This document shows positions 58,566-64,000 of a DNA stretch of 64,000 nt, piece by piece. The notes beneath the pieces are model-generated. The model was not told the DNA's origin. It did no database searches and saw only the letters and a program-made list of their open reading frames with translations. Origin of the DNA: Ensifer oleiphilus (GTDB taxonomy: Bacteria; Pseudomonadota; Alphaproteobacteria; Rhizobiales; Rhizobiaceae); assembly GCF_013371465.1 (NCBI RefSeq), contig NZ_JABWDU010000004.1:1-64000 (forward strand), given 5' to 3'. Position 1 is the first letter of the stretch; every line of letters begins with the position of its first letter. The position numbers were made by a program, and so were the translations under genes.

Positions 58566-60629
58566 ATGACCGCCAGCACCCCGCTCAATCCTGCCCTGAC
58601 GACCTGGACCGGGCATGAGGGCTTGCCCCGCTTCGATCTGGTGAAGGACACGGATTTCGCGCCGGCCTTCGAAGCTGCCTTCAAGGCGCATGAGGCGGAG
58701 ATCGACGAAATCGCTGCAAACCATGAGGCGCCGACCTTCGACAACACCGTGATTGCGCTCGAGATCGCCGGCGACGCGCTGTCGCGCATTTCCTCGATCT
58801 TCTGGAACAAGGCCGGTGCAGACACCAACGAAACCATCCAGGCGCTGGAACGCGACATCGCACCAAAAATGTCGCGGCATTATTCGAAGATCGGGATGAA
58901 TGCGGCACTGTTCAAGCGGATCGACACGCTCTGGGAAAACCGCGACAGCCTCGGTCTCGACCTCGAGGCGACGCGTGTCCTTGAGCGGCACTGGAAGGGT
59001 TTCGTCAAATCCGGCGCCAAGCTTGCCAAGGACGATCAGGAGCGGCTGGCGGCGATCAACGAGACGCTCGCCGGCCTCGGCGCCAAGTTCGGCCAGAACG
59101 TGCTTGCCGACGAGAAGAGCTGGGCGCTGTTCCTTCAGAGCGAAGAGGATCTGGCCGGCGTTCCCGATTTCCTGCGCGACGCGATGGCCGCTGCCGCCAG
59201 CGACCGTGGCGAAAAGGGCAAATACGCGGTGACGCTGTCGCGCTCGATCATCGAGCCGTTCCTCACCTTCTCCGACAATCGCGAGCTTCGGGAAAAGGCC
59301 TTCCGCGCCTGGATCGCCCGTGGCGAGAATGGCGGCGAAACCGACAATCGCGGCCTCATTGCGGAAACTCTGGCGCTCAGGGCCGAGAAGGCCAAGCTGC
59401 TCGGCTATGCCAACTACGCGGCGCTGAAACTCGACAATACCATGGCCAAGACGCCGGAAGCGGTGAACGGACTGTTGATGCAGGTCTGGGAAAAAGCCGC
59501 TGCCCGCGCCCGGGAGGAAGAGGCCGATCTTGCCAAGCTGGTTGCCGCCGAGGGGCGCAATCACGACGTCATGCCTTGGGATTGGCGCCACTATGCAGAG
59601 AAGCTGCGCGCCGAAAAGTTCAATTTCTCCGAAGGCGAACTCAAGCCCTACCTGCAGCTCGAAAAGATCATCGATGCCTGCTTCGATGTCGCCCAGCGGC
59701 TGTTCGGTATCACCGCGACCGAGAAGAAGGGCATTGCCGGCTATCATCCTGACGTGCGCGTCTTCGAGATCCGCGATGCCGGCGGAAAGTTGGTGGCACT
59801 GTTCCTCGGTGATTACTTCGCACGGTCGTCGAAGCGTTCCGGCGCCTGGATGAGCGCCTTCCAGTCGCAGCACAAGCTGACGCTGAAGAACGGTGCCGTC
59901 GGCGAGCTGCCGATCATCTACAACGTCTGCAACTTTGCCAAACCCGCCGAAGGCAAGCCGGCGCTGCTGTCGCTGGACGACGCGCGCACCCTCTTCCACG
60001 AGTTCGGGCATGCGTTGCATGGCATGCTATCCAACGTCACCTACCCCTCGGTCTCCGGAACGGGCGTGTCGCGCGATTTCGTCGAACTGCCGTCGCAGCT
60101 CTACGAACACTGGCTGACGGTGCCGGATATCCTGAAGCGCTATGCGGTGCACTATCAGACCGGCGAACCGATGCCCGAGGCGTTGCTCGACAAGGTGCTT
60201 GCCGCGCGCACCTTCAACTCCGGCTTTGCGACCGTCGAGTTCACCTCGTCTGCCCTGGTCGATATGGCCTATCATACGGCTGAAACGCAGAGCGAGCCGA
60301 TGGCGCTCGAAGCGGCGACGCTTGAAAAGATCGGCATGCCCCAGTCGATCGTCATGCGCCACCGCAGCCCGCATTTCCTGCATGTGTTCTCCGGCGACGG
60401 CTACTCCGCCGGCTACTATTCCTACATGTGGTCGGAAGTTCTGGATGCGGATGCGTTCGCTGCCTTCGAGGAGACGGGCAATCCGTTCGATCCCGGTATG
60501 GCGCAGAAGCTCAAGGACAATGTCTATTCGGTCGGCGGTTCGATCGATCCGGAAGACGCCTACAAGGGGTTCCGCGGCAAGCTGCCGAGCCCGGATGCCA
60601 TGCTCGCCAAGAAGGGGCTGGCGGCCTGA
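58566..60629 (+). CDS. dcp: M3-family metallopeptidase (peptidyl-dipeptidase Dcp / oligopeptidase A type)
   Basis: A 687-residue cytosolic zinc peptidase that degrades oligopeptides. The zinc motif HEFGHALHGMLS (near 478-489) is complete, with the third ligand in the following helix (DFVELPSQLYEHW, near 508). The C-terminal segment SGDGYSAGYYSYMWSEVLDAD near 613 is typical. The N-terminal 300 residues form the helical cap. The ATG at 58566 follows AAAGGAT at 6 bases. It converges with the fusion regulator. The choice between Dcp and oligopeptidase A is not certain. Confidence 0.9.
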   Translation: MTASTPLNPALTTWTGHEGLPRFDLVKDTDFAPAFEAAFKAHEAEIDEIAANHEAPTFDNTVIALEIAGDALSRISSIFWNKAGADTNETIQALERDIAPKMSRHYSKIGMNAALFKRIDTLWENRDSLGLDLEATRVLERHWKGFVKSGAKLAKDDQERLAAINETLAGLGAKFGQNVLADEKSWALFLQSEEDLAGVPDFLRDAMAAAASDRGEKGKYAVTLSRSIIEPFLTFSDNRELREKAFRAWIARGENGGETDNRGLIAETLALRAEKAKLLGYANYAALKLDNTMAKTPEAVNGLLMQVWEKAAARAREEEADLAKLVAAEGRNHDVMPWDWRHYAEKLRAEKFNFSEGELKPYLQLEKIIDACFDVAQRLFGITATEKKGIAGYHPDVRVFEIRDAGGKLVALFLGDYFARSSKRSGAWMSAFQSQHKLTLKNGAVGELPIIYNVCNFAKPAEGKPALLSLDDARTLFHEFGHALHGMLSNVTYPSVSGTGVSRDFVELPSQLYEHWLTVPDILKRYAVHYQTGEPMPEALLDKVLAARTFNSGFATVEFTSSALVDMAYHTAETQSEPMALEAATLEKIGMPQSIVMRHRSPHFLHVFSGDGYSAGYYSYMWSEVLDADAFAAFEETGNPFDPGMAQKLKDNVYSVGGSIDPEDAYKGFRGKLPSPDAMLAKKGLAA

Positions 60630-60644
60630 GCTTCGTCGAAAGGT

Positions 60645-62105
60645 TTATCGCGCCATCTGGCGCGAGCGGCCTGTCCAAAGCGCCCGCGCCGCCTCGCAGG
60701 CGGTCTCGAAGTCAGAGGTATTGCCCAGGCTGAGAAGGGCTGCGGCTGTCGTGGTGAGGATCGTCGTCTCGGCACGTTCGTCGCGGGCCGCCCCGGTCCA
60801 GACCGCCTCCCAATATTCGCGGGTACTGAGGCCTGTGCGTGCCTCGGCGGGTGGTGTCGGCAAGGCGGGAACGACGAGGTCGGCGGGCTCGCCGCCGACC
60901 AGGCGAAACAAGGGCGTCTGGCGATAGGGCGTGAACTCCGCATGGTCGCGGGTGTTGCCGAGGATCGTCAGATCCTTCACCCCCAGCAAAAGCGCAATGT
61001 CCCGGCTCAGCGTCCGGGCAGCTGAGTTCGCGACCCCAAGCAGGCTCGTGCGTGCGCCTAAGGGATTGATCAGATGCACGGCGGAACCGAGCGGGATGCG
61101 CATCTCCATCAACCCGTAAAGACCGAGCAGTCGGAAGATTTGCGGCGACAGTGCCGGTAACGGCAGATAGGCGATCCCGGTCCTTGCCAGCACCGCGTTG
61201 GCATCCTCAAGCGATGCGCAGACGGTGATCCCGTTGCGTGCGGCGGCGATTTCGAGCTTGCCGCGCTCGGCGCTCTCCTGGCCATAATGTCCATGCAGCA
61301 TCACGCGGTAGCCCGCACGTGCCACCAGCCTTGCCGCGTGCAGGAACCATGGCGCGGTCTTCAGTTTCGGCGAGAGATAACACGGCCAGTCGAGATCTGC
61401 CGCACCGCTGCCGGCGGCCACTGCGCCGACATGGCGACGGATCGCGCGCACGAAGCCGGCGATCTCGACCGCGGTCGCACCGCGATATTGCAGCGCCGCC
61501 ATCAGGGCGCCGATCTGCACCGGATCCGCCTCACCGGCAAGGATGATCGTCAAGGCATCTTCGGCTTCCGCCTCGCTCAAGGGGCGGCTGCGGCCGGCGC
61601 CGGTGCCGATGGTCGCGATGCTGCGGGCAAGCCGGCGTTGCGGGGCGGCATCGTCGCCGATGCGCGCCAGCTTGGCGGCAAAGGCTTCCGGTGTCGGTTC
61701 GCCGTCCAGCATCAGGCTCGGTCGAACGGCGAGCGGCGGCGCTGCGATCAGCCCTGCCCCCTCCCAGCCGCTAGGCTCCTGCGGATTGGCCGCTGTGGCC
61801 GGACCTGTTCGTTCGAAAAGCGCCTCCGTCTCTGCGGCAAGGGCGCGCACCCGCAGTCTCAGCGTTTCGGCAAAAGGCGTTGGGCGCAGGCCGTGTCCTG
61901 TGCGCAGGAACAGCGGGTCGCCATATTCTTCGCGCAGCTGGGACAGCAGCCGGCTCATTGCGGAGGGCTGCAGGCCGACGCTTGCAGCGGCCCGGCTGAC
62001 GCTGTTTTCGCGCAACAGCGTATCGAGCGCCAGCAGCAGGCGCAGCCTGCCCATATCGGTCTGCCGTTCGTGCGGGGGTAAAGACGCTTGCGCTTGAACC
62101 TTCAT
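60645..62105 (-). CDS. LysR-type HTH fused to a TrpD-like (glycosyltransferase family 3) domain
   Basis: A 486-residue two-domain protein. Residues about 18-80 are a LysR-type winged HTH: LLLALDTLLRENSVSRAAAS, then LQPSAMSRLLSQLREEYGDP, then LFLRTGHGLRPT. A linker of about 80 residues follows. From about 155 to the end the sequence resembles the anthranilate phosphoribosyltransferase-like fold: ILAGEADPVQIGALMAALQY, then HVGAVAAGSGAADLDWPCYL, then RVMLHGHYGQES and INPLGARTSLLGVANSAA. The usual LysR effector domain is missing. It diverges from the TonB-receptor gene, which it may control. ATG 62105 follows GGGGA; a TTG at 62126 is less likely. Confidence 0.85.
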   Translation of the reverse strand: MKVQAQASLPPHERQTDMGRLRLLLALDTLLRENSVSRAAASVGLQPSAMSRLLSQLREEYGDPLFLRTGHGLRPTPFAETLRLRVRALAAETEALFERTGPATAANPQEPSGWEGAGLIAAPPLAVRPSLMLDGEPTPEAFAAKLARIGDDAAPQRRLARSIATIGTGAGRSRPLSEAEAEDALTIILAGEADPVQIGALMAALQYRGATAVEIAGFVRAIRRHVGAVAAGSGAADLDWPCYLSPKLKTAPWFLHAARLVARAGYRVMLHGHYGQESAERGKLEIAAARNGITVCASLEDANAVLARTGIAYLPLPALSPQIFRLLGLYGLMEMRIPLGSAVHLINPLGARTSLLGVANSAARTLSRDIALLLGVKDLTILGNTRDHAEFTPYRQTPLFRLVGGEPADLVVPALPTPPAEARTGLSTREYWEAVWTGAARDERAETTILTTTAAALLSLGNTSDFETACEAARALWTGRSRQMAR

Positions 62106-62168
62106 CGCTGCCGTCCCCTCAATCAAGGCTCCGGCATATTCGAAACCTGTGTTTTGCGCTCATTCACA

Positions 62169-62185
62169 TTTAGAGCAGTTCTAAA
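62169..62185. promoter_or_regulatory. Irr-type iron control element (ICE box)
   Basis: TTTAGAGCAGTTCTAAA matches the rhizobial Irr motif TTTAGAA-N3-TTCTAAA at 13 of 14 fixed positions. It lies 72 bases upstream of the TonB-receptor start and 64 bases upstream of the divergent regulator start. Confidence 0.72.
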
Positions 62186-62257
62186 ACAGTGTCGTTGTCA
62201 CCCATGCCGCCAATAACTAAGTGGATCAAAATACTCAAGTTATTTGTGGGGACAGAA

Positions 62258-64000
62258 ATGAGCATTGAGGCACGCGGCCTGGTGGATAAAGGCACTGAGC
62301 GACACACATTCGCGTTACCGGTTGGGCGCAAGTCCGCGCAGCGCTCGTCGGAGCGTCGTCGGCACTTCGTCTACGCCTGCCTGGCGGGCGCGGCGCTGAC
62401 GGTGCCGATGGAAGCGCAGGCGCAGAAAGCCAAGGACAAGGAGAAAGACACCGAGCTGGAACAGATCGTCGTCACCGCGACCGGCTTCGAGCAGAACGTC
62501 AAGGATGCGCCGGCCAGCATCACCGTGGTGACCGGTGAAGAACTGGAAAAAGGCTCGTTCCGCGACCTGACCGACGCGCTACGCGATGCTCAAGGTGTGG
62601 CGGTAACGGGCGTTGCCAACGAGCGCGACATCTTCATCCGCGGCCTGCCCGGCTCCTACACGCTGATCCTCGTCGACGGAAAGCGCCAGAGCACGCGCGA
62701 CGCCCGCACCAATGGCAATTCCGGCTTCGAGCAGAGTTTCGTGCCGCCGGCCGCCGCAATCGAGCGCATCGAAATCGTGCGCGGGCCGATGTCGTCGCTC
62801 TATGGCTCGGATGCGATGGGCGGCGTCATCAACATCATCACCCGCAAGGTCTCCGATACCTGGAACGGCTCGATCACCACCGACGCGACGGTGCAGCAGC
62901 ATCAGCGTTACGGCAATTCCGGCCAGCTGTCGTTCTATGCCAACGGCCCAATCCTGAAGGACACGCTCGGCATGCAGATCTGGGGGCGTGGGCTGAAGCG
63001 CGGTGAGGATAAGTTCCTGTCCGGCATCACCGGCGCGCGCGAGCATGACCTCACCGCGCGGCTTGCCTATACGCCGAACGAGGACCACGACTTCTACCTC
63101 GAGGGCGGAACGGCGAGGCTGCGGCGCGAGGCCAATGTCGGCAAGACGATCGAAACAGGTCCAAGGGCCGTCAGCACCTACAACGACAATGATCGCGACC
63201 ACTGGTCGTTTTCCCACACCGGCCGCTGGGGACCGACCACATCCGATTTCTCGATCCTGCAGGAATGGGCAGAGCGCCGGAACTACAACTACAATGCAGC
63301 GCAAGGCCGCTTCGAAAAGCAGGCCCGGGCGCCCGAGGTTCGCAACACAGTGATCGATGGCAAGTTCACGACGCCGTTCGACCTCGGCGGCAGCCACACA
63401 CTGGTAACGGGCGGCCAATTCTTCGAAGCGCGTCTGTCAGACCAGAACCCCGGACGGCGCACCGGTCTCACCGAAAAATTCTCGGCGACACAGTGGGCGC
63501 TGTTTGCCGAGGACGAATGGCGCATGATCGACACCTTCGCATTGACGGGCGGCCTGCGCCTCGATCATCACGAAGAATATGGCTATCACCTCAGCCCACG
63601 CCTCTACGGTGTCTGGAATGCAACCGACAGCCTGACGGTCAAGGGCGGCATCTCCACCGGCTTCCGCGCGCCAGACATCCGCAGCATTGCGCCGGGCTAT
63701 GCCTACACGACGGGCGGCGGCGGTTGCTCCTATGGCCCGGCCGGTACCTGCGGCGTGATCATCGCCGACCCGAACCTCAAGGCAGAATCGAGCACGAGTT
63801 ATGAAATCGGCGCCGTCTGGGACAATGGTGACGTCATCCTGGGCGGCACCTATTTCTACACCGACTTCAAGGACAAGATCTCAAACTCGCTCGTGCTCGA
63901 CGCGGCAGGAAATCCGGTGCGCTGGAGCGAGGATCCGAACTATCGGCTCTGGTACAACTACAATATCGACGATGCCGTCATCCAGGGCGTCGAACTGACG
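62258..64000 (+). CDS. TonB-dependent outer-membrane receptor (3' part beyond the window)
   Basis: A frame of 581 codons from ATG 62258 that is still open at the right edge. A long basic N terminus precedes the signal peptide core (HFVYACLAGAALTVPMEAQAQ, ending near residue 65, quoted in full at 21 residues only by its ends HFVYA and AQAQ). The TonB box is ELEQIVVTATG. The plug domain contains ASITVVTGEELEKGSFRDL, RDIFIRGLPGSYTLILVDGK and IERIEIVRGPMSSLYGSDAM, which leads into GGVINIITRKV. Barrel strands follow, including GGISTGFRAPDIRSIAPGYA. The type resembles catecholate siderophore receptors (FepA/CirA). The Irr box suggests iron control. Confidence 0.93.
   Translation, partial: MSIEARGLVDKGTERHTFALPVGRKSAQRSSERRRHFVYACLAGAALTVPMEAQAQKAKDKEKDTELEQIVVTATGFEQNVKDAPASITVVTGEELEKGSFRDLTDALRDAQGVAVTGVANERDIFIRGLPGSYTLILVDGKRQSTRDARTNGNSGFEQSFVPPAAAIERIEIVRGPMSSLYGSDAMGGVINIITRKVSDTWNGSITTDATVQQHQRYGNSGQLSFYANGPILKDTLGMQIWGRGLKRGEDKFLSGITGAREHDLTARLAYTPNEDHDFYLEGGTARLRREANVGKTIETGPRAVSTYNDNDRDHWSFSHTGRWGPTTSDFSILQEWAERRNYNYNAAQGRFEKQARAPEVRNTVIDGKFTTPFDLGGSHTLVTGGQFFEARLSDQNPGRRTGLTEKFSATQWALFAEDEWRMIDTFALTGGLRLDHHEEYGYHLSPRLYGVWNATDSLTVKGGISTGFRAPDIRSIAPGYAYTTGGGGCSYGPAGTCGVIIADPNLKAESSTSYEIGAVWDNGDVILGGTYFYTDFKDKISNSLVLDAAGNPVRWSEDPNYRLWYNYNIDDAVIQGVELT

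Follow-up and report, generated by a model that had tools for sequence, protein, structure and literature searches.

Near the end of a 64,000-nt stretch of Ensifer oleiphilus DNA (assembly GCF_013371465.1, contig NZ_JABWDU010000004.1, positions 1-64,000; hereafter the window) lies a gene for a 486-residue protein in which a LysR-type helix-turn-helix (HTH) is joined through a linker helix to a TrpD-like domain. Judged by comparative sequence analysis, this fusion is probably a one-component transcription regulator that controls the uptake of catecholate-type siderophores, is gated by iron and carries a dead phosphoribosyltransferase domain as its sensor. The LysR-type HTH would bind a dyad in the promoter shared with a divergent TonB receptor gene, a promoter that in many relatives would also serve a siderophore ATP-binding cassette (ABC) operon. 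The TrpD-fold domain would dimerise and hold a small, siderophore-derived ligand in its rebuilt cleft, thereby switching the HTH, and cell iron would gate transcription of the fusion/receptor pair through Irr and RirA bound at their boxes; the receptor gene may be either activated or repressed. Gene placement, iron boxes and a dyad resembling an operator together suggest a local, iron-gated regulator of uptake. Searches of the open-licence PMC literature, with relevance judged in part by title and abstract, found no paper that deals with the fusion or with how it is regulated.

The HTH_1 match (residues 21-80) corresponds to a winged helix followed by a predicted linker helix (77-98), which in the predicted structure is connected by a low-confidence linker to the TrpD-fold domain (139-486). 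The TrpD fold was recognized by VIA-align on Foldseek's ranked chains; this alignment shows the TrpD-like part only, and the HTH fold is Pfam evidence. The initial annotation held that a TrpD-like domain replaces the LysR effector domain, and Pfam, family models and fold comparison agree: the LysR substrate-binding effector domain, which resembles periplasmic binding proteins (PBP-like), gave no Pfam match in the fusion protein at E up to 1, nor was there a Pfam match to a MOP/TOBE molybdate-binding domain. The same annotation expected HTH_1 plus Glycos_transf_3. The former was found, and the TrpD-like part was placed in PRK09071 (NF006564), with a score of 301.5 bits against a cut-off of 257 over residues 150-484. 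Scores with the trpD (59.4 against 199.05) and YbiB (68.5 against 185) models were below their cut-offs; by these models the C-terminal domain belongs to PRK09071 rather than to TrpD or YbiB. In Neorhizobium sp. NCHU2750 (L077, 6899-8950) the fusion continues into an IalB domain, giving a protein of 683 residues.

In TrpD, the motifs GTGGD and KHGN and the Mg loop serve the phosphoribosyl pyrophosphate (PRPP) and Mg sites. In an alignment with E. coli YbiB and the TrpD of the window's genome, GTGGD is matched by DLDWPxY and the following residues of PRK09071 proteins, and KHGN by xHGx. Residues were counted in 64 fusions and in 8 stand-alone PRK09071 proteins, all 8 of Rhodobacteraceae type. 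In the 64 fusions the GTGGD and Mg-loop columns are occupied by different residues; KHGN has lost its K in every one and keeps its N in 10. D239, W240, P241, H271, G272, P393 and W436 are invariant in fusions and stand-alone proteins alike. Other positions separate the two: the stand-alone loop KGGGGE (8/8 in the counted set; KGxGGE in most other stand-alone alignment rows) gives way in fusions to G-x-x-R386-D387-x-A389-[EQ], with R386 in 63/64, D387 in 64/64 and A389 in 62/64; W253 is present in 64/64 fusions (stand-alone proteins have L in 6 and W in 2), Y330 in 56/64 (R in 8/8) and E334 in 59/64 (G in 8/8). In the alignment, these fusion-specific columns coincide with or neighbor the TrpD positions for PRPP, Mg and anthranilate. 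Other residues are near-invariant where the motifs have been replaced, a pattern to be expected from a new binding function but not from simple decay; the domain looks like a rebuilt pseudo-enzyme, probably catalytically dead, rather than a decayed copy. A PRPP-like ligand, one of the possibilities raised by the initial annotation, is unlikely given the replacement of these motifs, and PRPP sensing was set aside.

The same residues bear on a role like that of E. coli YbiB (TrpD2), in which the TrpD-like domain would bind to nucleic acid or to another protein and contribute DNA affinity or a protein contact instead of sensing a ligand. YbiB, like the fusion, has a TrpD fold without the TrpD motifs, but it has no HTH. 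Its groove arginines are Arg92 and Arg123 (PMC10123104). The counterpart of Arg92 (residue 247) is K or R in 58/64 fusions, but that of Arg123 (residue 281) is R in 14 and K in 2, that is, basic in only 16/64. Fusion-specific conservation centers instead on W, Y, E and R-D, and the fusion's score lies far under the YbiB cut-off, so that the nucleic-acid binder suggested by the initial annotation is weakened and a YbiB-like role appears unlikely. Isoelectric point says little on the matter, since the calculated value for YbiB itself is 6.4. In E. coli K-12, ybiB and the catecholate receptor gene fiu are about 3 kb apart (L197, 3249-4211 and 7250-8001), a proximity that is probably coincidental.

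Conserved pairing with transport genes, as earlier proposed, was borne out by a survey of 40 neighborhoods of 12-17.5 kb, drawn from 39 of the 41 Rhizobiaceae genomes that have a fusion-type match, plus one genome from a sample of the order (G116); the window itself and G751, a fragment at a contig end, were omitted. In 37/40 loci a divergent TonB receptor gene starts no more than 340 bp from the start of the fusion, the window being an additional case, and a receptor occurs anywhere in the neighborhood in 39/40. A siderophore ABC operon (CeuE-type binding protein, permease and ATPase) accompanies 26/40, with one operon cut by a contig end (L163) scored as absent, and in L155 and L176 the binding-protein gene takes the divergent place instead of the receptor. 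The locus L175 was retained as a miss. Among 183 plasmid records with any match, 10 fusion records, including those of Azospirillum, Cereibacter and Sulfitobacter, were examined, and all 10 carry genes for a receptor or an ABC system no more than 7 kb from the fusion (the ABC genes of L070 were found by search). On an Agrobacterium plasmid (L069, 5287-6735) a multicopper oxidase gene separates the fusion from the siderophore ABC operon. A count in the window's own genome gave 9 receptor plug domains and 111 HTH_1 matches; judged by coordinates, no HTH_1 gene other than the fusion lies next to a receptor, the next-nearest pairs being 4.7-4.9 kb apart; in the 16 kb around the fusion, it and the receptor were the only matches to the reference set. 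Close receptor relatives (E 1e-150 or better) occur in 36/41 Rhizobiaceae genomes with a fusion-type match vs 11/353 without (Fisher p 8e-36, not corrected for kinship), the 36 including a receptor match in two pieces (G885) and one with internal stop codons (G751). That the protein regulates uptake, as the initial annotation suggested, is an inference.

The shared promoter was analyzed in 40 intergenic regions (the window and 39 loci, with L175 left out because it has no neighbor match) and in an extended set of 52 promoters, to which 9 plasmid loci and L013, L015 and L016 were added (L070 was left out). The ICE (Irr-type) consensus, whose letters did not appear in the literature passages checked, was found within 3 mismatches in 28/40 intergenic regions, vs a mean of 0.34 and a maximum of 2 in 200 shuffles. 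Genome-wide, a relaxed ICE pattern with at most 1 mismatch has six sites and a reversed control none. The other five sites adjoin mbfA and 5-aminolevulinate synthase genes (both over cut-off), a gene for cysteine desulfurase and, as assigned by eye, an nfuA-like gene and one for an iron-ABC-like binding protein. An Irr box is also described for Rhodobacter mbfA (PMC3413700). A second element, (G/A/C)GA-N9-TCA, is present within 3 mismatches in 40/40 intergenic regions (shuffled mean 5.1, maximum 10), and lies 53-56 bp from the ICE box in 36/37. The conserved motif ACTCAAGTT had been considered as the operator and was re-read as a RirA-like box following a genome-wide pattern search and the RirA literature, in which the box is given as TGA-N9-TCA (PMC8822346). 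The RirA reading is tentative because 39/40 copies lack the initial T (1/40 has it; the window has GGA-N9-TCA), and the box could be a site for RirA, for the fusion or for both. The pattern is unspecific by itself, as a genome-wide search at up to 2 mismatches gave 55 matches vs 79 in the reversed control.

Adjoining the ICE box is a dyad, TTGC-N7-GCAA, that has the expected look of a LysR-type operator. It occurs within 2 mismatches in 39/52 promoters (shuffled mean 2.8, maximum 9), and its TTGC half-site in 43/52 (8.5 shuffled), although shuffling overstates significance and sets a low bar for this dyad and for the RirA-like box, because both patterns were taken from the very promoters, themselves related, in which they were then counted. 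T-N11-A is found in 36/52 promoters, the window and its close kin not being among them. Extended palindromes are seen in L068 and L176 (TTTGCG-N5-CGCAAA) and L077 (TTTGCT-N5-AGCAAA), and TTGC-N7-GCAA is present in Novispirillum (L013), from another order. In 10 views covering the remaining five ICE sites of the genome, no such dyad was found at up to 2 mismatches.

In an alternative reading, the domain would be a dimerization scaffold without a signal of its own, with regulation coming wholly from Irr and RirA at the promoter; the near-constant spacing of the ICE and RirA-like boxes fits, as does the head-to-head dimer of YbiB (PMC10123104), but a scaffold has no need of fusion-specific near-invariant cleft residues, and this alternative is improbable. 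Least probable is a domain that remains an enzyme of some other phosphoribosyl- or glycosyl-transfer with catalysis coupled to regulation (a trigger enzyme), as the high conservation of the cleft and the names given to homologues by their sources (glycosyl transferase family protein or anthranilate phosphoribosyltransferase) might suggest, but the replaced GTGGD columns, the missing lysine of KHGN, the exchange of KGGGGE for x-x-R-D-x-A and the low trpD score all tell against it.

For the preferred interpretation, a sensor domain controlling siderophore uptake, solved structures hint at the kind of substrate. The nearest solved structure to the receptor is the colicin I receptor CirA (E 2.6e-100), followed by ferric-enterobactin receptors. 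For the binding protein of the Shinella operon the closest entries are 8bf6, 8b7x, YclQ and those for enterochelin binding (CeuE), which fits catecholate siderophores. Anthranilate is the native ligand of the TrpD fold, and 2,3-dihydroxybenzoate is an anthranilate look-alike, which makes a catechol or benzoate ligand attractive. Conceivably, in what would be a new class of one-component regulator, the pocket has been rebuilt to recognize a catechol or aromatic acid released from siderophores after their import, such as 2,3-dihydroxybenzoate, so that the receptor would be made only if iron is low and the cell meets a foreign siderophore that it can use; this is offered as a speculative suggestion, with prospects well below even, since the anthranilate-binding arginine of TrpD is replaced by Tyr330 in the fusion.

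That substitution is one of several observations that weigh against the proposed mechanism, as does the derivation of the dyad and RirA-like patterns described above. None of the NCBIfam receptor or binding-protein models reaches its cut-off, so the catecholate assignment rests on the nearest solved structures. The receptor occurs without the fusion in 11 genomes. In the window's genome the CeuE-type binding-protein gene is on another contig (56% identity to the Shinella protein), and nothing convincing as an operator was found before this unlinked ABC operon. Only the first half-site of the dyad is kept in the window and in its nearest kin (L137-L140), and the dyad is missing altogether from L141; none was found at the matching place in Azospirillum, Cereibacter or Sulfitobacter. 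The unlinked CeuE-type gene (L198/L201, G000:C29:347668-348549) is itself divergent from permease-like genes.

Table 1. Features of the fusion locus in the window (an Rfam scan of 60000-64000 at gathering thresholds gave no match).
Feature	Position	Strand	Basis
Fusion regulator gene, 486 aa: LysR-type HTH, linker helix and TrpD-like (PRK09071) domain	60645..62105	-	Profile searches, structure comparison
LysR-type helix-turn-helix (HTH_1), residues 21-80	61866..62045	-	Pfam PF00126, E 2.3e-15
TrpD-fold domain, PRK09071 family, residues about 150-484	60654..61658	-	Family model
CirA-like TonB-dependent receptor gene, 724 aa in the genome, running beyond the window to C27:64432	62258..64000	+	Profile and structure search
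Shared divergent promoter region	62106..62257	.	Sequence
Candidate operator place; TTGC half-site kept, second half degenerate in the window	62152..62168	.	Motif search, relatives
ICE (Irr-type) box TTTAGAGCAGTTCTAAA	62169..62185	.	ICE consensus, 1 mismatch
RirA/IRO-like box GGATCAAAATACTCAAGTT (GGA-N9-TCA), 54 bp from the ICE box	62223..62241	+	Motif search, RirA box (PMC8822346)

The PRK09071 family was over cut-off in 29/297 genomes sampled from the order, and relatives were found in 43/385 genomes of a class sample, where the window's was the only listed match to cover the HTH, and in 81/398 of a phylum sample, with the HTH covered in 3, all Rhizobiaceae. Within Rhizobiaceae, 46/394 genomes have a match, 5 of them stand-alone by match range and 26-28% identity and 41 of fusion type. 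In a tree of 114 domains (20 rows thinned out; the stand-alone loci L036-L062 included without a neighbor survey), 53 fusions and one headless copy, L175, form a single group with support of 100/100 and a long stem (1.27). Azospirillum, Novispirillum, Insolitispirillum, Cereibacter and Sulfitobacter are included in it. As one group holds members of three alphaproteobacterial orders, the fusion would, by this tree, have arisen once and been retained in all three, with the caution that both outgroup rows and a Sulfitobacter row (L073) have long branches. For L175 (G972), neither HTH nor receptor gene was found in the locus; it may be a decayed copy, an assembly effect or a reversion to the stand-alone form.

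Stand-alone homologues match from about residue 150 on and occupy different surroundings. Across 39 surveyed loci a receptor match was found in 0 and nasA or nirB in 26: in a subset of 20, the figures were 0/20 for the receptor and 7/20 for nirB or nasA (L179, L181-L184, L190 and L193), and in the 19 Rhodobacteraceae-type loci (L017-L035) they were 0/19 for the receptor, 19/19 for nasA and 18/19 for nirB. Many stand-alone PRK09071 genes are inside or adjoining nirB-nirD-nasA-cysG nitrate-assimilation clusters. On a Sulfitobacter plasmid, the annotation places a copy (L075) within nirB-nirD-nitrate reductase-cysG; a copy on an Acinetobacter plasmid lies outside such a cluster.

In Vibrio cholerae, the LysR-type regulator IrgB is encoded beside irgA, divergent from this siderophore receptor gene. 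The fusion has in common with such regulators the HTH_1 domain, the linker helix and the divergent siderophore receptor gene, but has a TrpD fold in place of their PBP-like effector domain. ModE provides a second parallel, in that a LysR-type HTH is joined to foreign sensor domains, although these are molybdate-binding (MOP/TOBE) domains; the likeness concerns domain make-up. The fusion shares its fold with the anthranilate phosphoribosyltransferase TrpD, whose catalytic and PRPP motifs are replaced; its C-terminal domain is over the cut-off of the 'glycosyl transferase family protein' PRK09071, but lacks the KGGGGE loop of the stand-alone members. A LysR-type HTH with a foreign sensor domain is a known kind of regulator, of which the fusion is a new variant.

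If the proposal is true, a group of proteins currently annotated as glycosyl transferases would gain a function, and an enzyme fold would have been turned into the sensor of a LysR-type regulator. It would also pose a testable ligand question, centered on anthranilate-like catechols, for siderophore uptake in soil bacteria, while the stand-alone PRK09071 proteins would stand out as unexplained members of nitrate-assimilation clusters.
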